Shown: positions 12,012 through 21,056 of the stretch, in pieces
Layout of the letters: each line of letters opens with the position of its first letter
Position numbering within the stretch: the stretch's first letter is position 1
From: Comamonadaceae bacterium
GTDB lineage: Bacteria > Pseudomonadota > Gammaproteobacteria > Burkholderiales > Burkholderiaceae_C
Length of the DNA: 64,000 nt
Direction of reading: 5' to 3'
Assembly (NCBI GenBank): GCA_947443645.1
Contig: CANEXF010000004.1
Location: 82,642 to 146,641, forward strand
Notes under the pieces: model-generated
The model's database searches: none
What the model was told of the DNA's origin: nothing
Seen by the model: the letters and a program-made list of their open reading frames with translations, nothing else
Program-made: the position numbers and the translations under genes

Positions 12012-12863
12012 ATGAATCAGGCTTTTGAATTTGAATACCCACGCGTGCTGAGCATTGCGGGCTCTGACAGTGGCGGCGGCGCGGGCATCCAGGCTGACCT
12101 TAAAACCTTTGCGGCGCTGGGCTGCTACGGCACGACGGCGATTACCGCATTGACGGCTCAAAACACCCTGGGCGTGCGCGCCATTCATGGCGTCCCGCCG
12201 GCCATGCTGACGGACCAGATAGACGCCGTGGTCGAGGACATAGGCGTGCATGCGGTGAAGATCGGCATGCTGCATTCCCCGGAAATCGTGCGTGCGGTGG
12301 CCCAGGCTATTGACCGCCATGCGCTGCAAAACGTGGTGCTGGACCCGGTCATGGTCGCCACCAGCGGCGCGGTGCTGATAGACAATCCGGCGATTGCGGC
12401 GCTGGTGAGCGAGCTGTTCTGGCGCACGGCGCTGGTCACGCCCAATCTGGACGAGGCGGCCTTGCTGGTGGGGCGCCCACTGGACAGCGAGCACGCCATG
12501 GAGATCGCAGCGGGCGAATTGCTCGCCAAAGGCGCGCGGGCGGTGCTGCTCAAGGGCGGACATCTGCCGGGTGACCTGGTCAGCGATTTGCTGATGTCGC
12601 AAAACGGCCAGCCGCACTGGATGCGCGCGCCGCGTATTCCAAGTGCCAACACCCATGGGACGGGTTGCACCTTGTCGTCTGCGATTGCGGCGCACCTGGC
12701 CTTGGGCCAACCGTTGCTGGCGGCGGTTGAGGCCTCACGCAGCTATGTGCGGGCAGCGCTTGAAGCCGGCGCCAGGGTCCGCACCGGCGCAGGCAGTGGC
12801 CCGCTCAACCATGCGCATGCGCCTTTGGCCATGCGCCTGATTCCGCTCAAGCCGTCGCGCTGA
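12012..12863 (+). CDS. thiD: Hydroxymethylpyrimidine/phosphomethylpyrimidine kinase
   Basis: ThiD phosphorylates 4-amino-5-hydroxymethyl-2-methylpyrimidine (HMP) and then HMP-P to HMP-PP for thiamine phosphate synthesis. The 283-residue ribokinase-fold protein is complete: N-terminal [20 protein letters not shown] (residues 14-33), [21 protein letters not shown], the LVTPNLDEA motif near 141-149, LLKGGH, and the catalytic [10 protein letters not shown] with Cys219. It converges with cytX and overlaps its 3' end by 17 bases. The leader has a hairpin with U-run but no recognisable TPP aptamer. Together with CytX and the TPP-controlled operon downstream it suggests a pyrimidine salvage locus. 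Confidence 0.95.
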
Positions 12864-14133
12864 GTGCTGCGGCTGCCGGACGGCTCAGGCGCGCCAGCAC
12901 AAAGGTCAGTGCCAGCGTCGGCAGTGCCGCGCCCAGATCGGGAAGCTGCAGCGAACACAGGTGGTAGCAAACGATGCCCATGAACCAGATCAGCACCGCG
13001 CTGTAGTCAACCTTGCGCTTCGAGACCATCTCGGCCACGCCGTTGTGGCCAGTCAGGCGCGCCAGGATCACGCCATAAAGCGGAATGAACACCGAGCTGA
13101 GCATCAGCAAAAACGGCTCCAGGCTGTGCATGGGCAGCACCAGCGCCAGCGCGGTACAGACCACGGCCATCAGCATGCCCCAGCGGCGCACAGTCCAGTT
13201 GGGCTTGAGGCTGTGGCCGGCCACGGAGCCGGAGTACAGGTCGCCGTAGGCGTTGTCTACTTCGTCAATCAGAATCAGTCCCAGTGCGATCAAGCCGCCT
13301 TGTGCCAGCAGCAGTGCCGCGACCAGGTCGGTGCTGGGCGTGGTGATGGCCACCAGAACGCCCAGCGCGTAGCACCAGACGTTGGCAATCGTGTAGCCCA
13401 GCCAGGTGCCGCGCAACGCGCTTTTGCCCTGGCGACCATGGCGGGCGAAGTCGGCTACCAGCGGCAACCAGGACACTGGCATGGCGATCACCAGATCCAG
13501 CGCCGACAGCGTGCTCATGCCGCCCGCGCCAGCGCGATTCCACAACTCGGCAAAGCTCATGTCATTGGCCTTGCCCAGGAATTGCCAGCTCAGCCAGACC
13601 AGCGATGCCAGCACCAGCGGCAGGCCGTAGCGGCCTATGAACTGGCGCACCAGGGTGACCATGGAGCCTGACAGCAGGGCCAGCAAGACCGCGCCCCAGA
13701 GCACTGTGGCCAGCAAGGGCCAGTAGTCACTGGCGAAACCACCGGACTGGCGCGCAATGGCCATGCTGCCGTCGCGCATGATGACCAGCTCAAAAGCGGT
13801 CCAGCCCACCAGCTGCACGATGTTGAGCAGCACCGGCAGGCGCGCAAAGCTGCCGCCGTATGTGGCATGCATCAGGCCCGCGCTGGACAGGCCGCTGTCG
13901 CAGCCAATCCTGGCGGTCCAGGCCAGCAGGCCCGAGCCCAGCACCGAGCCGAGGACGATCACAAAAACCGCCTGCTTGGCGCCCAGCGCCGGCACCAGGT
14001 AAGCGCCAATCTGCATGACCAGCAGGCCGACGCCCAGGCTGAACCAGAGCGCTGCATGGTCGCGAAAGCCAAAGGTACGCTCGCTGCTTGCGAGCGGCGA
14101 AAGCGCAGTATTTTCAGTAGGCGTAGCAGCCAT
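12847..14133 (-). CDS. cytX: CytX-type hydroxymethylpyrimidine permease (NCS1 family)
   Basis: The 428-residue membrane protein has about 12 hydrophobic segments and resembles the cytosine/purine permease (NCS1) family in its CytX branch. Seen features are the N-terminal FGFRDHAALWFSLGVGLLVMQIGAYL, WTARIGCDSGLSSAGLM, NIVQLVGWTAFELV and ADFARHGR. CytX proteins are predicted importers of HMP and are usually under a TPP riboswitch. Here the upstream region keeps only the last 19 bases or so of such a riboswitch (14200-14218), so normal TPP control looks lost. The gene itself is intact. Substrate assignment rests on the family and on the neighbouring thiD. Confidence 0.82.
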   Translation of the reverse strand: MAATPTENTALSPLASSERTFGFRDHAALWFSLGVGLLVMQIGAYLVPALGAKQAVFVIVLGSVLGSGLLAWTARIGCDSGLSSAGLMHATYGGSFARLPVLLNIVQLVGWTAFELVIMRDGSMAIARQSGGFASDYWPLLATVLWGAVLLALLSGSMVTLVRQFIGRYGLPLVLASLVWLSWQFLGKANDMSFAELWNRAGAGGMSTLSALDLVIAMPVSWLPLVADFARHGRQGKSALRGTWLGYTIANVWCYALGVLVAITTPSTDLVAALLLAQGGLIALGLILIDEVDNAYGDLYSGSVAGHSLKPNWTVRRWGMLMAVVCTALALVLPMHSLEPFLLMLSSVFIPLYGVILARLTGHNGVAEMVSKRKVDYSAVLIWFMGIVCYHLCSLQLPDLGAALPTLALTFVLARLSRPAAAALSATA

Positions 14134-14199
14134 CAGTATGTCCAGTTTTGAATGACAGGTCTGCGTGCTTCAAGCCCACTGCGGTAGGCGCGCAAACAT

Positions 14200-14218
14200 G
14201 CTTCCCTGCGCGAGGATT
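14200..14218 (-). promoter_or_regulatory. 3' stump of a TPP riboswitch upstream of cytX
   Basis: The plus-strand stretch gcttccctgcgcgaggatt is identical to 20741-20759, the 3' end of the complete TPP riboswitch at 20741-20830. The 5' aptamer parts (ctgaga and the ctttgaacctgat arm) are absent; decayed thiD sequence begins directly next to it. It lies 67 bases upstream of cytX on the cytX strand, where a THI-box would be expected. Confidence 0.75.
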
Positions 14219-14801
14219 CCATGCGGTACCCGCCGAGTTTTTGAAGGTGCAAATCCAGTCGGTGGTTGAAGTCATCGGCTTTGACGCCGTAAATATCGGG
14301 ATGCTGCATGCACCTGAAATTGTCGAGGTCGTGGCTTGGGCCATTGACCAATATCGACTCACCCGCCTGGCGCTTGACCCCGTGATGGTGGCCACCAGCG
14401 GTGAACGTGTGATCGCTGCTGACACCTTGACCCCTGCCGCGAAAGAACTGCTGGCCGTGGGCGCCCAAGCGGTCTTGCTCAAAGGTGGTCACCTGATAGC
14501 CGATGAGGTGGTTGACTTGCTGCTGCAAGCCGACGGCAGTGCGCAGCGCTTGGCAGCGATGCGCATTGCAAGTCGCAACGTGCATGGCACGGGCTCTACC
14601 TTGTCGTCTGCTATTGCTGCTCACTTGGCACTGGGCCATCCACTGCAAGAGGCCGTCACCTTGGCGCGCGGTTTCATCTTGAGCGCGATCGCCCAAGGAT
14701 CCAAGGTGACTACGGGCCAGGGTCACGGACCGTTGAATCATGGTTTTGCTCCCATGCCGCTTCATCGCATCACCAACCCGCCATCGACCGTCAACACCTG
14801 A
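14219..14801 (+). pseudogene. Decayed second thiD copy
   Basis: The reading frame is open but the protein is a damaged ThiD. The first 59 or so residues, including [17 protein letters not shown], are missing. The match starts at HAVPAEFLKVQIQSVVEVIGF and continues through NIGMLHAPEIV and [10 protein letters not shown]. Compared with the intact ThiD at 12012 about 36 residues are missing after VMVATSG, including the TPNLDEA motif. The catalytic GTGCT has become GTGST. The frame upstream of the match runs through the riboswitch stump and non-homologous DNA. It overlaps the dehydrogenase gene 3' end by 40 bases. Loss of kinase function is very likely. Confidence 0.8.
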
Positions 14802-15556
14802 CCGGTCATAAAACGGCTCCAGTCAGACGCCAAAAACAGCACCGGCCCTGCCACGTCATCGGGCGTGGCCATGCGGCCCAGAGGGGTCTGTGCAATCAGT
14901 GCCTCTTTTACCGACTCTTTGGTGGCACGACTGGAATCGGTCGGACTGACCAAGCCCGGCGCCACGCAATTGACGCGGATGCCCTGGGCGCCTAACTCGG
15001 CGGCCAGGTTGCGGCTAAAGCCTATCAAGGCTGATTTAGCCGTGGTGTAGTCGTGGTACGCGATGCTGGGGCGGTCTACCAGGTCACTCACCAAGTTGAT
15101 AATGCTGCCTTTTGCGCGTTGCTTGAAATGCGGCAGTACGGCTTGACAAAGGTTGTAAGCCGCACGCACCGCGCCGTCGAACTGAGTTTGGTAGGCCTGC
15201 CAAGGCATGTCTCCAAAGCGGGTGCGGTTCTCGGGGTCGAAGATGTAGGGGCTGAATGCGTTGTTCACCAGCACATCAATGCGGCCAACTTCGCGAAGTA
15301 TTTGCTCCACCATCGCGTGTACTGCGTCAGAGTCGCGCACATCAGCGGCAAAGGCCCAGGCGTCGCCGCCACTGGCTTGGCCAAGTTGTTGGCAGTCAGC
15401 CACCACTGCATTGGCGGCTGCGCTGTTGCGCAGGTAGTTAACCAGCACCATTGCGCCTTCGCTAGCAAACGCACGTGCAATGGCCGCACCGATGCCGCGG
15501 CTGGCACCCGTGACCAAGACCACTTGGCCTGCAAAGTGGCAAGAGTGCTTGTTCAT
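14762..15556 (-). CDS. Short-chain dehydrogenase/reductase (FabG-like)
   Basis: The 264-residue classical SDR shows the cofactor motif TGASRGIG (residues 16-23), NNA (98-100), and the catalytic Ser157, Tyr170 and Lys174 in YHDYTTAK. The C-terminal TGQVLTVDGG is typical. It should reduce a carbonyl or oxidise an alcohol with NAD(P)H/NAD(P). It is the last gene of the TPP-controlled operon and overlaps the binding-protein gene stop by 4 bases. After a LuxE-like activating enzyme and a LuxC-like acyl reductase, an SDR would be the natural step from aldehyde to alcohol; this role is inferred. Confidence 0.85.
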   Translation of the reverse strand: MNKHSCHFAGQVVLVTGASRGIGAAIARAFASEGAMVLVNYLRNSAAANAVVADCQQLGQASGGDAWAFAADVRDSDAVHAMVEQILREVGRIDVLVNNAFSPYIFDPENRTRFGDMPWQAYQTQFDGAVRAAYNLCQAVLPHFKQRAKGSIINLVSDLVDRPSIAYHDYTTAKSALIGFSRNLAAELGAQGIRVNCVAPGLVSPTDSSRATKESVKEALIAQTPLGRMATPDDVAGPVLFLASDWSRFMTGQVLTVDGGLVMR

Positions 15557-16578
15557 CGGTTCGCTGGCTTGTGTGGGGGCAACAGGTCTTGGCTGACCAC
15601 GTCACGGACCTGAATGTTGCGTTCGATGACGCCAAAGGCTTTGTAGGCCTGGGCACCTTTTTGCAGTCCTGCCATGTCAAACGCGCCCAAGCCTCGCTGC
15701 GCGGTGATGTTTGACACGCTGCTGTCGTTGCGTAGGCGGATGATGTCCAAGTTCAGAACGGCGTTTTGACCGTCAATGGCGTACTTGACAGCGAGCTTGG
15801 CAGCCTCTTCGGGGGACTGCATCATCCACTTGGCACTTTCTTGGTAGGCCAGCAAGAACCTCTTGAGCAATTCTTTTTTCTGCTGATACGTGTCTTCGCG
15901 CACCACAAAAAAATCGCTCGAAATATTCAGGTGGTTTTTGACTTCCATCACATTGACACCGCCCAAGCCCCTTTGGCGGCCGACCAGCAATCCGGTGTCG
16001 GTGGCAGCTGTGGCATCGACTTGGCCTTGCATTAAAGGGGCGAAGTTCAGCAAACCGGTCACTACCACGGTCACGTCGGCTTCGGTCAAGCCGGCCTGGT
16101 GCAGCAGCACCTGCAGGTTTTGGCGCGTGCCGCTGGCCAGGCTGTAGACGCCGATGCGTTTGCCCTTTAGGTCGGCTGGCTTGAAAATATTTTGAGATTT
16201 CAAAGACACCACGTTGAAGACATTTTGCGGATAGATGTCGTAGATGGCCCTGAGCTTCTCGCCTTTGTCTAAAGCTGTGAAAAACGAACCGGGGTCGGTG
16301 AAAGCCACTTCAGCTTGTCCGCTGAGTAGGTTGCGCAGGGCGTCACCGCCGCCTGAACCCGGAACGTAGCCCAGATCAATGCCGCGGGCTTTGAAAAAGC
16401 CTTTGTCTTCTTCCACCAGCAAGTTGGTGATTTCGGTGATTGGTTTGCTCCAGCCCGCTACCACCACTTTATCCAGTTTGGCTGCCGCTTGCGCCCAGCC
16501 CAGGCAGGGCGTTGTCAAAGCTAACGCGATACTGAGGGCCCAGCCCAACAGGGAATACATGCCCATTTTCTTCATCAT
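15553..16578 (-). CDS. NMT1/THI5-type ABC substrate-binding protein (ThiY-like)
   Basis: A signal peptide (residues 1-30, ending in GWAQA) is followed by an NMT1/THI5-like periplasmic binding fold: KVVVAGWSKPITEITNLLVEEDKGFFKARGIDLGYVPGSGGGDALRNLLSGQAEVAFTDPG, then LKGKRIGVYSLASGTRQNLQVLLHQAGL. ThiY proteins of this family bind pyrimidine thiamine precursors such as formylaminopyrimidine. The gene lies in a TPP-riboswitch operon with its permease and ATPase, so a thiamine-related ligand is likely. The exact ligand cannot be read from the sequence. Confidence 0.83.
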   Translation of the reverse strand: MMKKMGMYSLLGWALSIALALTTPCLGWAQAAAKLDKVVVAGWSKPITEITNLLVEEDKGFFKARGIDLGYVPGSGGGDALRNLLSGQAEVAFTDPGSFFTALDKGEKLRAIYDIYPQNVFNVVSLKSQNIFKPADLKGKRIGVYSLASGTRQNLQVLLHQAGLTEADVTVVVTGLLNFAPLMQGQVDATAATDTGLLVGRQRGLGGVNVMEVKNHLNISSDFFVVREDTYQQKKELLKRFLLAYQESAKWMMQSPEEAAKLAVKYAIDGQNAVLNLDIIRLRNDSSVSNITAQRGLGAFDMAGLQKGAQAYKAFGVIERNIQVRDVVSQDLLPPHKPANR

Positions 16579-16587
16579 GCTTTCCTT

Positions 16588-17340
16588 TTAAAAAGTTGTG
16601 TCTAAGGGCAAGCAACGATGTGCCAGCCATTGCGCCAATTTGTAAAACGCCAGGCCGAGAACCGTGATAACGGTAAGCACCGCAAACATCAGCGGTGTGT
16701 CCATCGAGCCCTGCGCAGCAATGATCAGCGCGCCCAATCCCCGACTGGCGCCAATGAACTCACCCACTACAGCGCCCACCCAGGCAAGCACCACGGCAAC
16801 TCGCAAGCCCGCAAAAATGTGCGGCAAGCCTGCTGGGATCTTTAAGCGCCACAGTGTTTGCAACCGACTGGCGCGCAGCATGCGAAACAGCTCCAACTGG
16901 CGCGCGTCCACTTGTTGCATGCTGGTGGATGTATTTTCGAGCAGTGGGAAAAAACAAATCAAGGCCGTCATCACAACGGTGGGCAAGGTGCCAAAGCCAA
17001 ACCAGACAATGAACAAGGGCGCAAGTGCCAGCTTGGGCAGAACTTGGCTGATCACCACATAAGGCATCAATACACGACGCCAGCGCAGTGACTCGCCAAG
17101 TACCACGCCACCCGCAAAGCCCAGGGAGGCACCAAGAAGCAAACCCAGCACGACCTCGGTGAGCGTGAGAACGATGTGGGGCAAGAGGTAACCACTGGCC
17201 AAGCCCTGCAGCAGCGACTGCGCCACCGCCGAGGGCGCTGGCAGCACCAAGGGTGAGGTGTGGCAGAGCCGCACCACGGCTTCCCAAGCGGCCAGGAAGG
17301 TCAACCCCAGGGACCAAGACAGAGCCAAATCGCGCCGCAT
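16588..17340 (-). CDS. ABC transporter permease (ThiX-like)
   Basis: This 250-residue BPD_transp_1 permease has about six membrane segments and the EAA-type loop (SMQQVDARQLELFRMLRASRLQTLWRLKIPAGLPHIFAGLRVAV). The ATG at 17340 overlaps the TGA of the ATPase gene, which fixes the start (MRRDLALSWSLG) better than the longer upstream frame. It forms the membrane channel of the importer with the ATPase and the NMT1/THI5-type binding protein, all on one TPP-controlled transcript. Confidence 0.85.
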   Translation of the reverse strand: MRRDLALSWSLGLTFLAAWEAVVRLCHTSPLVLPAPSAVAQSLLQGLASGYLLPHIVLTLTEVVLGLLLGASLGFAGGVVLGESLRWRRVLMPYVVISQVLPKLALAPLFIVWFGFGTLPTVVMTALICFFPLLENTSTSMQQVDARQLELFRMLRASRLQTLWRLKIPAGLPHIFAGLRVAVVLAWVGAVVGEFIGASRGLGALIIAAQGSMDTPLMFAVLTVITVLGLAFYKLAQWLAHRCLPLDTTF

Positions 17341-18086
17341 CACACGCCCCCATCCATAGAGCGGCGCAGCTGGGCGCACAAAGCGGCAAAAGGGGCGCTG
17401 TAGCGCAAGTCCGCCAGGCGCGGGCGCGGCAAATCAATCGCCAAGGGTTCTTGGATGGCCCCGGCCTGCATGAGGCTGACCCGATCAGCTAGGAACACGG
17501 CTTCGCCAATATCGTGTGTGACAAAAAGTACCGAGGTGCCTTGGGCTTTGCACAAGGCCAAAAAGTCTTGATGCAATTCGTCTCGGGTGATGGCATCTAG
17601 AGCTGCAAAGGGCTCGTCCATGAAAAGCACCGAGGGCCGCGTGATCAACGCACGAGCAATCGCCACTCGGCTTTGTTGACCGCCAGAGAGTTCAGCCGGT
17701 CGCGCGTGCAGCAAATTCGAAAGCCCCATCGAGGCCAACAGTTGCTGGGCATGACGGCGGTCGTCATCTGTCACCAGGGCGTGCAAACGCACTGGCAGCA
17801 GCACGTTGTCGGCCACGCTTAGCCAGTTCAGCAGCGTGGGCAATTGAAAGACAAAGCCCATCTCAGGAACAGGGGCCCGCACGTGGCTATCTTGCAGCAA
17901 CACCTGGCCTTGTTGTGGCTGAAGCAGACCTGCGGCGAGTTTGAGTAAGGTGGTTTTCCCGCAACCGCTGCGGCCAATAAGGCAATGGATTTCGCCTGGC
18001 TCCATCTGCAAACTCACGTCACGCACTACTACGCCCCGCTCGGGATATGCGAAATGAACATCTTTAAGTTGCAGAAATTGCGCCAT
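17340..18086 (-). CDS. ABC transporter ATP-binding protein (ThiZ-like)
   Basis: The 248-residue ATPase has Walker A IGRSGCGKTT, Q-loop VFQLPTLLNWLS, signature LSGGQQSRVAIARAL, Walker B VLFMDEPFAALD and the H-loop FVTHDIGEAVF, as in the nitrate/taurine/thiamine-precursor (TauB/SsuB) group. I start it at the ATG at 18086 (MAQFLQLKDVHF), which follows the stop of the acyl reductase gene by one base. It drives import by the neighbouring permease and binding protein. Confidence 0.88.
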   Translation of the reverse strand: MAQFLQLKDVHFAYPERGVVVRDVSLQMEPGEIHCLIGRSGCGKTTLLKLAAGLLQPQQGQVLLQDSHVRAPVPEMGFVFQLPTLLNWLSVADNVLLPVRLHALVTDDDRRHAQQLLASMGLSNLLHARPAELSGGQQSRVAIARALITRPSVLFMDEPFAALDAITRDELHQDFLALCKAQGTSVLFVTHDIGEAVFLADRVSLMQAGAIQEPLAIDLPRPRLADLRYSAPFAALCAQLRRSMDGGV

Positions 18087-18087
18087 A

Positions 18088-19566
18088 TCAGAGCTCGTAT
18101 GAGGTGAAATTTTCGGCACTGCGCTCAGTGCTGTCCTCTATGTCGACCCATCGCACCAGGTCGAGCAAGCTGAAGCGTCCGTCGTGATGCCAGCCCGCTT
18201 CTGGAGCGGTCATCGAGCCCAATGCACATAGGCGTGTCACACCAACTTGGCCCAAGCACTCACCCAAATGCAGCAGCTCTTCGGGGGCTGCGGCCAAACC
18301 TACAGTTTGCAAAAAGTCGCGTTGAGGCACGACCAATTCTGCTACTTCATCTAGGCTATCCACGGCCACCACCAACACGTTGCGGTTAAGCGGGCCGGGT
18401 GTGAGTGGCAAGGCTTGATCGGAAAATACCACGCAGCCCCAATGGGCATCGCCACCCAATACCTTGCGCCTGGCACCATTGAGCACGGCCAACTCATGCG
18501 TCTCTCTCCAAGCGCCCACCACTGCGCTTTCTTCAAGGGCCAAGACGCGACGTGACCATTTGTGCTTCAAAGCGGCTAAGGCGCTGGCGAGATGCTGCGC
18601 AAATTCTTCGGGGCTCAAGCGCCCTCCGCGTTGCACATAAAACACATGCGGCGAGTAGCAGCCTTGTTGCTCAAAGCGCGCCACGTCCGAAGCCGCTTGG
18701 CGGGCGACAACCGGGCCTTTATTGTCCGAGAGCGTCGCCGCCGACACCATGCCAAAACTCAGTTTGTGACCGTGTGGCAAAAACCTTGTGGTCACCGGGA
18801 CCTGCACTTGGATGGCGCTAAGTGCGTCATTGCCGCCATAGGCAAGCACCACATCGGCCAAGTCGAAGGCGCGCTGCTCGGCGCTGGGTGTGGGTACGGT
18901 GGCATTTTCGCCGCTGGGCCACCACACCACGGCAAAACAGTCGGCCCAGCGGGGTTCGACCTCAGCCAACAACCTGGCATAGAGGCTGGCAAAAATGGGT
19001 TCGGCACTGGCAACTTTGCCAATCGAGCCGGCTTTGACCAACAGACCCGAGACCCAGCTCCACATCGGCAGGGCGGGCACATTACCGGCCCAGACATGAA
19101 CCAGCAATTCGGGACCAAAGGCTTTGCTCCAACCGCCTTTGGCTCGGGGCTGAAACTCGTCCAGCAGCTTGGGGTTGGCGAAATCTTCGGTCACGAAACG
19201 CTGCAATTGCAGCGCACGAAAAGTTTGCAGATAGGAGCTCAGATTCAGCCGCACCATATCCGCATCGAAGCCGGTGGCTTGAGGCAGTAGTCGATCGAGC
19301 TGTTGGCGGTATTCGTCCTGCGAGTCAAGCAAACGGGCTGTTGCGCTGTCCAGCACGCGCACGATGTCCGACACGGTCATGGTCTTCAAATGCACTTGAC
19401 TGGCTGCACGAATGCGCGCGGCTAATGTTGTCATTTGATCGGGGCTGGGCTGGGGCACGTCGACCAGGAGCGGCGCATCGGGCGTGCCCAGGGTCAGTCG
19501 ATGCCAGACCACCTCGGCGCTCCTTAACCCGGGCAGATAACCTGCTTGAAAGACCGACGTGTTCAT
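18088..19566 (-). CDS. LuxC-like acyl-CoA/acyl-thioester reductase
   Basis: The 492-residue protein belongs to the LuxC acyl-CoA reductase family, related to aldehyde dehydrogenases. It shows the conserved VHVWAGNVPALP block (157-168) and the catalytic cysteine Cys303 in FEQQGCYSPHVFYV, which in LuxC takes the acyl group before NADPH reduction to an aldehyde. It is translationally coupled to the LuxE-like gene (4-base overlap) and followed at once by ABC transporter genes. No luciferase genes are near, so this is not bioluminescence. The TPP riboswitch implies a thiamine-linked acyl substrate, which is inference. Confidence 0.83.
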   Translation of the reverse strand: MNTSVFQAGYLPGLRSAEVVWHRLTLGTPDAPLLVDVPQPSPDQMTTLAARIRAASQVHLKTMTVSDIVRVLDSATARLLDSQDEYRQQLDRLLPQATGFDADMVRLNLSSYLQTFRALQLQRFVTEDFANPKLLDEFQPRAKGGWSKAFGPELLVHVWAGNVPALPMWSWVSGLLVKAGSIGKVASAEPIFASLYARLLAEVEPRWADCFAVVWWPSGENATVPTPSAEQRAFDLADVVLAYGGNDALSAIQVQVPVTTRFLPHGHKLSFGMVSAATLSDNKGPVVARQAASDVARFEQQGCYSPHVFYVQRGGRLSPEEFAQHLASALAALKHKWSRRVLALEESAVVGAWRETHELAVLNGARRKVLGGDAHWGCVVFSDQALPLTPGPLNRNVLVVAVDSLDEVAELVVPQRDFLQTVGLAAAPEELLHLGECLGQVGVTRLCALGSMTAPEAGWHHDGRFSLLDLVRWVDIEDSTERSAENFTSYEL

Positions 19567-20705
19567 TCTCTAGCAGCTTGCAAAAATTCGTCTACCGCTA
19601 AAGAGCAGCCTTTGGCTTGTGTACCCTGGGCGCGGCCTAGCAAGACGAAGCCATCCTCGCTGCTCTGCCCCACGTCTTCTGTGAGGATAGTGACTACGGA
19701 GTTGAAGTTGGCGAGGTCGGTGTGGGCCAAGATGCCACGCTCGCCATCCGGTACGTCGTTGCCGGTTAGTGGATCGACCAAGCGTGAACGAATCCAGTGG
19801 GGGCCACGTTTGACCGAGGGCACTGTGCGGTTGCCCGCGTCGTAGAACTGAGTGCTCAACTCGGTCATCCCGTACATGTTGAGGCAATGGTCGCGGCTGA
19901 CGCCAAATGTGGCTGAGAGTTGAGCGTAAAACGCGTCCATAGGAACTTCGCGGGACTGGCCTTTGAAACTGCCGGTGTCCAGCAGGCGGCTGCCTGAAGG
20001 CAGTTGAAAAGTTTGGCCACGCGCCTGCAGAGCGTCCATCAGATGCACAAAGCTGTAACTTGCACCAAGTAAGAAAAAGGCTTCCCCACTGAGTTGGGCT
20101 TGCGTGAGGGCGTCGCAGAGCGAGTCGACCTGCAGGCCTGACTCGTTCAGGTAGTAAGCGCTGTCTGATGTACCCAACTGGGCGATGGCCAATGCCAGGT
20201 AATGAGCCAGTGATGAATTGGGCATCAGTGTTTCATTGGGAAACAGCAGGCCCATACGCACCTGCGAGCGCCCTTGCATCACATGGTGTGCAAAGTTGCG
20301 CAGCATAGACGCGTCATAAACGGCCATTGTGGGGTGGTGGTGGCGGCCTTTCACATCACCACGGGTGGTTCCGCTGGTCATAAACACGCGGGCACAGTCT
20401 TCAGGTGCAGCGCAGCTGAGGGTCAAGTCTTTGAAGGCATTGATAGGTACAGCCGGGATGTCGCGCCAACTTTTCACCACTCGAGGTGTTTTCCCCCGCC
20501 CCTGACAAAACCGCTGGAACGGATGGTTGTTTTCAAATTGGTAGGCAAAAAGGCGAAGGGCAAACGCGTTGAACTCATCGTCACTGACCGTGGGACGTCC
20601 CAAAAAAGCCAGAAGGTCTGAAACGATCAATTCAGATTGTGCGTTCTCTAAAGCCACAGTGCTTCGCCATTTCAAAAATATGGCAGGTCGGCTAGGTAAG
20701 AGCAA
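19563..20705 (-). CDS. LuxE-like acyl-protein synthetase (AMP-forming)
   Basis: The protein of about 380 residues belongs to the LuxE acyl-protein synthetase family within the adenylate-forming enzymes. The phosphate-binding FMTSGTTRG (108-116) and the adenylate motif YGMTELSTQFYD (278-289) are present, as is LLDTGSFKG. LuxE activates a carboxylate with ATP and hands the acyl group to LuxC. It is the first gene after the TPP riboswitch. Starts are weak: TTG at 20705 gives the longest frame, GTG at 20657 (VALENAQ) is an alternative. With the reductase and SDR it forms a carboxylate-to-alcohol reduction set. Confidence 0.83.
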   Translation of the reverse strand: MLLPSRPAIFLKWRSTVALENAQSELIVSDLLAFLGRPTVSDDEFNAFALRLFAYQFENNHPFQRFCQGRGKTPRVVKSWRDIPAVPINAFKDLTLSCAAPEDCARVFMTSGTTRGDVKGRHHHPTMAVYDASMLRNFAHHVMQGRSQVRMGLLFPNETLMPNSSLAHYLALAIAQLGTSDSAYYLNESGLQVDSLCDALTQAQLSGEAFFLLGASYSFVHLMDALQARGQTFQLPSGSRLLDTGSFKGQSREVPMDAFYAQLSATFGVSRDHCLNMYGMTELSTQFYDAGNRTVPSVKRGPHWIRSRLVDPLTGNDVPDGERGILAHTDLANFNSVVTILTEDVGQSSEDGFVLLGRAQGTQAKGCSLAVDEFLQAARE

Positions 20706-20740
20706 AGGTGCTCAGACGGAACACTACTCTTTTAAACAAA

Positions 20741-20830
20741 GCTTCCCTGCGCGAGGATTACCTCAATCAGGTTCAAAGGGACTTTCTCAGTCGCAGCCGT
20801 CTGTAACAGAAAGCCGAAACACCCCTAGCG
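20741..20830 (-). promoter_or_regulatory. TPP (THI-box) riboswitch
   Basis: On the minus strand the order of conserved TPP aptamer parts is complete: ctaggggtg, a variable stem, ctgcgactgagaaag, ccctttgaacctgat, taatcctcgcgcaggg, and aagc closing P1 with gct. The CTGAGA and CCTGAT boxes are exact. It lies 36 bases upstream of the first possible LuxE start. TPP binding normally turns off such genes by termination or by hiding the ribosome-binding site; no strong terminator hairpin is seen here, so translational control is more likely. Confidence 0.93.
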
Positions 20831-21056
20831 AATGCACTGTCGCCAGTGCAGGCGGCAAGTGTAGGCGAAAGTTCGCACTATGAAAAGAGGAGCTGCTTGC
20901 GCCAGTCGCCATTGGTTCACAAGCTGTTTTGGGTGAAAAAGGCGGTGGCATGGGCGCCTGGTTAGCGCATTTCTTGCACCAGATAGTCTCGCAAAGCAAT
21001 AGAGACGGGCGCTGGCAGCTAGCAAATAAGGAGCGGTCTGGGCGTGCTGGCGGGTT

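Follow-up and report, generated by a model that had tools for sequence, protein, structure and literature searches.

A TPP riboswitch-headed operon with LuxE- and LuxC-like enzymes: a proposed salvage route for the oxidised pyrimidine of thiamine

A stretch of 64,000 nucleotides from a Comamonadaceae bacterium (NCBI GenBank assembly GCA_947443645.1, contig CANEXF010000004.1), referred to here as the window, carries a six-gene operon in which a thiamine pyrophosphate (TPP) riboswitch precedes genes for a LuxE-like synthetase, a LuxC-like reductase, an ATP-binding cassette (ABC) importer and a short-chain dehydrogenase/reductase (SDR). We propose, with a probability of about two in three, that this is a TPP-repressed operon for the salvage of the pyrimidine half of thiamine, which would reduce an acid to hydroxymethylpyrimidine (HMP); the substrate and the enzyme activities, the order and direction of the reactions and the turning off of the operon by TPP are what we infer. 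An importer of the THI5/ThiY-like type would bring in an oxidised pyrimidine, for which 4-amino-2-methylpyrimidine-5-carboxylate is the likeliest candidate. Using ATP, LuxE would convert the carboxylate to an acyl-adenylate (acyl-AMP) and then load the acyl group onto its own C-terminal cysteine, from which LuxC would move it to a cysteine of its own and form the aldehyde with NAD(P)H as reductant, leaving the SDR to convert the aldehyde to HMP. ThiD would phosphorylate HMP, and ThiE would couple the product with the thiazole made by ThiG. Such an operon could be a main source of HMP in strains without thiC and a supplementary source in strains that have it.

Since the proposed sequence runs from acid to alcohol and ends in HMP, the starting acid would be 4-amino-2-methylpyrimidine-5-carboxylate. 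TPP riboswitches normally switch genes off when TPP is plentiful, and this, together with the linkage to an importer, argues for salvage rather than breakdown. The acid is on record, going by the title of Neal and Pearson (1964) as cited in PMC7780320, as a thiamine metabolite in rat urine.

The riboswitch aptamer (THI element) lies at 20727..20836 on the minus strand (RF00059, 57.8 bits against a cut-off of 54.3, E-value 1e-08) and is the sole Rfam match above threshold in the entire 64 kb. It encloses the interval 20741-20830 in which a sequence-only reading of this DNA had recognised a complete TPP aptamer, and the one-strand gene set named in that reading is borne out by a Pfam identification of every member. 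From the riboswitch onwards, the operon comprises a luxE-like gene for a carboxylate-adenylating/acyl-cysteine synthetase (19563..20657; PF04443, 69.5 bits, cut-off 24.9), a luxC-like gene for an NAD(P)H-dependent acyl (thioester) reductase, the putative aldehyde-forming enzyme (18088..19566; PF05893, 286.5 bits), an ABC transporter ATPase with a ThiZ-like role (17340..18086; PF00005, 119.1 bits), an ABC transporter permease with a ThiX-like role (16588..17340; PF00528 (BPD), 107.8 bits), a ThiY-like periplasmic binding protein of the NMT1/THI5 type (15553..16578; PF09084, 164.8 bits) and an SDR proposed for the step from aldehyde to alcohol (HMP) (14762..15556; PF13561, 203.7 bits). All six genes lie on the minus strand, that of the riboswitch, and are joined by overlaps of 1-4 nt or separated by no more than about 9 nt, as had also been noticed before; the TPP riboswitch-headed LuxE/LuxC/importer/SDR operon is confirmed. 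The luxE open frame extends to 20705, where the first in-frame TTG stands, and alignment to relatives makes the GTG at 20657 the likelier start. A single-sequence minimum-energy fold of the riboswitch leader showed no clear switch, and the fold was not used.

The arrangement is strongly conserved among relatives. Across 399 genomes of the order, LuxE homologues comprise eight strong matches (the window's own and seven at 59-64%) and four weak ones, and the window and the seven strong Burkholderiales homologues share an identical gene order. A TPP riboswitch precedes luxE in all eight, five scoring above the cut-off and three at 48.6-54.1 bits (vs 54.3). A wider set of 87 loci was made up of these seven homologues and the best 80 of at least 410 relatives in a scan of genome contigs; it leans towards close kin and holds at least one duplicate (L015 and L096 are one contig). 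The sequence runs on for 6.5 kb or more past luxE in 64 loci, and in every one of them luxE is followed in order by luxC, the ATPase, the permease, the binding protein and the SDR, and because this order recurs in 64/64 loci the cassette lies far beyond chance. A TPP aptamer pattern, written as a regular expression after the aptamers of this group had been viewed, is found upstream in 78 of the 87 loci, most of these matches standing without Rfam scoring; since the pattern matches exactly 78 times on both strands of the 2.94 Mb, it is absent elsewhere in that DNA. Among the nine loci without a pattern match, two (L032 and L046) lack DNA upstream, and of the remaining seven, five match the Rfam model: L102 above the cut-off at 63.6 bits, L027-L029 (33.6-38.3 bits) and L099 (50.8 bits) under it. 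A TPP aptamer thus stands ahead of the cassette in 83 of the 85 loci whose upstream DNA is available (78 by pattern and 5 by Rfam, 4 of the latter under the cut-off). In 13 of the 87 loci thiD lies directly ahead of luxE, and in all 13 the aptamer stands before thiD.

The enzymes retain the residues that the proposed chemistry would use. The C-terminal cysteine of LuxE, Cys351, which is presumably the acyl acceptor, is invariant in 25/25 aligned LuxE proteins; a K/R-G-C-S motif is kept in LuxE at 86 of the 87 loci, and so is the LuxC cysteine motif (86/87). The SDR motif Y-x-D-Y-x-x-A-K occurs in 67 of the 73 loci that cover the region. LuxE and LuxC have sequence matches to chains E and A of 7xc6, the LuxC alignment to 7xc6_A, a luminescence reductase, running across the cysteine region. 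The structural model of LuxE (predicted local distance difference test score, pLDDT, 86.7) has fold matches to PaaK-type and other adenylating enzymes, several of them with aromatic acids, including the phenazine biosynthesis protein structures 3l2k, 3hgv and 3hgu. The fatty-acid models fit the window's proteins poorly: its LuxE scores 61.9 bits against a cut-off of 550 for the long-chain fatty acid LuxE equivalog NF052244, and its LuxC 91.5 bits against 750 for the long-chain fatty acyl-CoA reductase equivalog NF052251, and their assignment as these equivalogs was rejected. In a tree of 25 LuxE proteins, the cassette copies form a clade of 19 (support 100/98) apart from the six others; the two of these whose annotated surroundings were read have genes for AMP ligases and for acyl carrier or phosphopantetheine-binding proteins nearby. 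Among the operon's own six genes there is no acyl carrier gene.

The transporter appears to be of the ThiXYZ type, with a THI5/NMT1 binding protein of predicted ThiY fold, an ATPase and a permease. The AlphaFold model of the binding protein (pLDDT 92.8) has as its best Protein Data Bank folds the thiamin-bound 4nmy, which comes first, and then 3ix1, a ThiY that binds formylaminomethyl-pyrimidine (FAMP) (template modelling scores 0.85 and 0.87), a result in keeping with the ThiXYZ-like importer that had been suggested from the sequence. Ligands differ within the THI5/ThiY family, FAMP in 3ix1 and thiamin in 4nmy. The signal peptide of the binding protein was judged by eye. A role for the protein as a THI5-type HMP synthase was rejected: in an alignment of the cassette binding proteins to the profile hidden Markov model, the His66 position holds another residue and the CCCFC motif falls in a gap, the two features which we take to be catalytic in that synthase.

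The same set is found well beyond these relatives, in part on plasmids. As the sequence-only reading had proposed to check, LuxE-LuxC-SDR sets occur behind TPP riboswitches in other genomes, namely in Azospirillum, Pantoea, Priestia, Niallia and the Lactobacillus group. Plasmid records of Azospirillum lipoferum and Priestia hold the full six genes, and one Pantoea plasmid record holds luxE-luxC-SDR alone. In the Niallia and Lactobacillus-group cassettes, also behind TPP riboswitches, an NCS2 nucleobase permease stands in place of the ABC importer. In Lactiplantibacillus plantarum and Levilactobacillus brevis, a TPP riboswitch, an NCS2 permease, luxE, luxC and an SDR lie together on small plasmids of 10 and 21 kb (L123:1390-6321 and L124:2947-7878), and these sets would be a vitamin salvage cassette in portable form. 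A Niallia taxi megaplasmid has tandem TPP aptamers (85.0 and 72.9 bits; L126:5763-6059) followed by thiW, an NCS2 permease and luxE-luxC-SDR. The riboswitch scores above the cut-off before the Lactobacillus, Niallia, Azospirillum, Pantoea and Pseudomonas silvicola copies and just below it at the Priestia locus (L125; 49.0 bits, E-value 1e-06), so that it is present at 7/7 plasmid cassette loci examined. In the Pseudomonas silvicola plasmid copy (L129:7740-11314), which has the riboswitch ahead, the luxE match is in three pieces and the luxC match in two. TPP riboswitches therefore precede the set in alpha-, beta- and gammaproteobacteria and in Bacillota. The LuxE proteins of a Geobacillus thermodenitrificans contig (L102) and a Bacillus metagenome-assembled genome (L099), both behind a TPP aptamer, cluster with the one from the Priestia plasmid; these sequences make a transfer of the cassette between phyla probable, and contamination is possible for L102 and L099. 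The importer varies and the enzymes are constant, and luxE-luxC-SDR is therefore the catalytic core; the cassette importers belong to transporter types for pyrimidine precursors or nucleobases.

The distribution of thiamine genes is in line with a source of pyrimidine. In the family set of 349 genomes, the cassette is present in 33, thiC in 223 and thiG in 236. The cassette occurs in 10 of 18 genomes with thiG and without thiC, in 22 of 218 with both (Fisher p=1.1e-5) and in 1 of 113 without thiG, this single genome (G506) being 55% complete; the comparison of genomes with and without thiG gives p=4.5e-5 (Fisher). When the group with thiG and without thiC is limited to genomes with a completeness of 90% or more and a contamination of 5% or less, the cassette is found in 8 of 12. 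The cassette tracks the making of thiazole without the making of pyrimidine, and it therefore behaves as a pyrimidine source should. A closer count used 28 cassette genomes, after one genome (G418) had been dropped as a duplicate of another (G325): thiG is present in all 28 and thiC in 17, CytX is whole in only 5, TenA was not found in 15, and 6 of the 11 thiC-less genomes are also without TenA and CytX. No match to thiC or to TenA was found in the window's own genome, which is 99.97% complete. On balance we lean towards a wider claim, that a widespread and horizontally mobile pathway in two phyla converts 4-amino-2-methylpyrimidine-5-carboxylate to HMP through LuxE-LuxC and an SDR, that in some lineages it replaces ThiC, and that the acid is an unrecognised vitamer of B1.

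Several observations weigh against the proposal. Loss of thiC alone is not associated with the cassette (11/33 vs 115/316, p=0.85), and a simple association with thiC loss was rejected, the signal appearing only within genomes that have thiG. The genomes are related and not independent, and a genus count (8/16 vs 12/87, p=0.0026) is rough, as the groups share genera and the 87 thiC-containing genera include some without thiG. Eight of the 18 genomes with thiG and without thiC lack the cassette, four of them being less than 90% complete; TenA is present in only two of the eight, and other pyrimidine sources must therefore exist. The window's own genome also carries cytX. Two loci, L095 and L105, have no TPP riboswitch by Rfam, even at an E-value of 0.05, the Pantoea cassette examined has no adjoining transporter gene, and the Niallia operon includes thiW, a component of a thiamine-precursor transporter whose role we take to be predicted for thiazole. 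The likeness of the LuxE fold to aryl-acid adenylating enzymes may reflect the family fold only. The sequence-only reading, in which an oxidised thiamine fragment is imported and reduced to HMP, is nevertheless supported once narrowed to the pyrimidine: the fold of the importer, the thiD genes at 13 of 87 loci, the enrichment in genomes with thiG and without thiC, the near absence of ThiM, the absence of thiamine pyrophosphokinase (TPK) and the kept cysteines all speak for it, and what did not hold is a link to thiC loss as such. A thiazole carboxylate, which that reading had put forward as an alternative, is now less probable.

Among the alternatives, one that we consider unlikely keeps HMP as the product and changes only what is imported, be it another acid of the thiamine pyrimidine, a larger conjugate, or the aldehyde, with LuxE and LuxC taking part of the flux. 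The thiD genes in the operon and the pyrimidine-type importers fit it as well, as do the varied ligands of the THI5/ThiY family (3ix1, 4nmy). LuxE and LuxC, however, require a free carboxylate, and the 5-carboxylate is the sole thiamine-pyrimidine acid found in the literature searched, though it was sought by name. Salvage of the other half of the vitamin, by reduction of 4-methylthiazole-5-acetate to hydroxyethylthiazole, is very improbable. That compound is also a carboxylated fragment of thiamine, and the thiW gene of Niallia would suit it, but ThiM, the kinase that hydroxyethylthiazole requires, is strongly matched in just 1 of the 28 cassette genomes, and thiazole-making ThiG is present in 28/28. 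The operon, moreover, can hold thiD, not thiM, and the importer is replaced by permeases of the nucleobase type; the thiazole route is disfavoured on these counts. Repair of the whole vitamin, with thiamine acetic acid imported and reduced to thiamine, has a small chance in our estimate. The chemistry fits and the top fold match of the binding protein is thiamin-bound (4nmy), yet TPK was found in 0/28 cassette genomes (ThiK-type kinases were not searched for), which disfavours the route, and repair predicts neither the dependence on thiG nor thiD in the operon.

The two remaining explanations take the enzymes away from thiamine altogether. Known LuxE and LuxC work on long-chain acyl groups, and the two other LuxE in the tree that were read in annotated context adjoin acyl carrier/phosphopantetheine-binding proteins and AMP ligases, so that the cassette enzymes might serve fatty acyl, sugar or other acids in an unrelated process, the TPP control being incidental. 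This is given an equally small chance, in view of the TPP riboswitches ahead of the set in three classes of proteobacteria and in Bacillota, the separate clade of the cassette LuxE, the low score of the window's LuxE on the fatty-acid model and the lack of an acyl carrier gene among the six. Least probable of all is a role in vitamin B6 metabolism, in which 4-pyridoxate would be reduced to pyridoxal or pyridoxine and ThiD would act as the pyridoxine kinase. Enzymes of the ThiD family are able to phosphorylate pyridoxine, and a pyridoxal dehydrogenase model is among the many matched by the Niallia SDR, far below its cut-off; the riboswitch upstream, however, is of the TPP class, and the cassette tracks thiG. 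Salvage of the thiamine pyrimidine from its 5-carboxylate remains the preferred account.

The surroundings of the operon also contain thiamine genes. A cytX-like gene for a putative HMP transporter of the NCS1 family lies at 12847..14133 on the minus strand (TIGR02358, 259.2 bits, under the 309.85 cut-off) and probably has a related function. Beyond it, on the plus strand, is an intact thiD encoding the HMP/HMP-P kinase (12012..12863; TIGR00097, 305.4 bits, above cut-off). A thiD remnant adjoins the operon (14148..14801, plus strand); it lacks its N-terminus, has an internal deletion and is 64% identical to thiD of Limnohabitans B9-3, and Limnohabitans relatives have an intact thiD downstream on the opposite strand. 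One other TPP riboswitch was found in the window's genome, before a thiazole operon (G000:C7:79806-79917, equivalent to L022:9807-9918) in which thiG was confirmed, thiO, thiS and thiE were assigned by eye, and thiC is not included. In Polaromonas sp. CG9_12, the cytX-like gene is broken up into four matches, which looks like decay, and the cassette is kept (G414:C5:4091208-4093875).

No description of LuxE or LuxC in thiamine salvage was found in the open-access (PubMed Central) literature, a scope outside which most subscription papers fall, and no such pathway is mentioned in the accessible sections of PMC3766115, a survey of TPP regulons. The operon would salvage a thiamine precursor by means of unexpected enzymes, in a pathway undescribed in that literature. 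If the proposal is true, a fragment regarded until now as waste is a source from which bacteria regain vitamin B1, by chemistry of the bioluminescence type, and it is a vitamer absent from those listed as measured in the accessible part of PMC10881298. It would also help to explain how abundant thiC-less freshwater bacteria are supplied with pyrimidine, Limnohabitans being described, in an excerpt of PMC12637900, as thiC-less and reliant on external pyrimidine. The plasmid LuxE copies are annotated mostly as long-chain fatty acid-CoA ligase and otherwise as acyl-CoA synthetase, and LuxC is labelled with bioluminescence; public annotation of the cassette copies is probably misleading, and would be corrected.

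Four known systems offer points of comparison. The phenazine structures among the LuxE fold matches (3l2k, 3hgv and 3hgu) are those of what we take to be EhpF, which presumably readies an aromatic acid for reduction by activating it; the adenylation of phenazine acids by enzymes of the EhpF type, however, belongs to antibiotic biosynthesis and not to vitamin salvage, and we know of no TPP control of such systems. CytX imports HMP itself, and HMP salvage by CytX and ThiD has in common with the operon, as proposed, the delivery of HMP to ThiD and, in the window, its position next to the operon, but it takes HMP directly with no reduction, and a whole CytX is present in only five of the 28 cassette genomes. 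With the fatty acid reductase of bacterial luciferase systems, LuxC-LuxE(-LuxD), the operon shares the C-terminal cysteine of LuxE, the cysteine of LuxC, the adjacency of the two genes and the match to 7xc6 chains E and A. It differs in that the cassette LuxE shares about 19-25% identity with the other LuxE proteins in the comparison, in that its six genes include neither LuxD nor luciferase, and in having an SDR partner, proposed to reduce the aldehyde to the alcohol, and a TPP riboswitch upstream. The fourth system is the ThiXYZ-TenA-YlmB salvage of FAMP, in which a TPP-regulated ABC importer delivers a pyrimidine precursor to ThiD. The operon as proposed shares with it TPP regulation, an ABC importer with a THI5/ThiY-type binding protein and a pyrimidine precursor passed on to ThiD, whereas the six genes of the operon include no TenA or deformylase (a deformylase elsewhere in the genome was not searched for), and a three-enzyme reduction from acid to alcohol is proposed to take their place.

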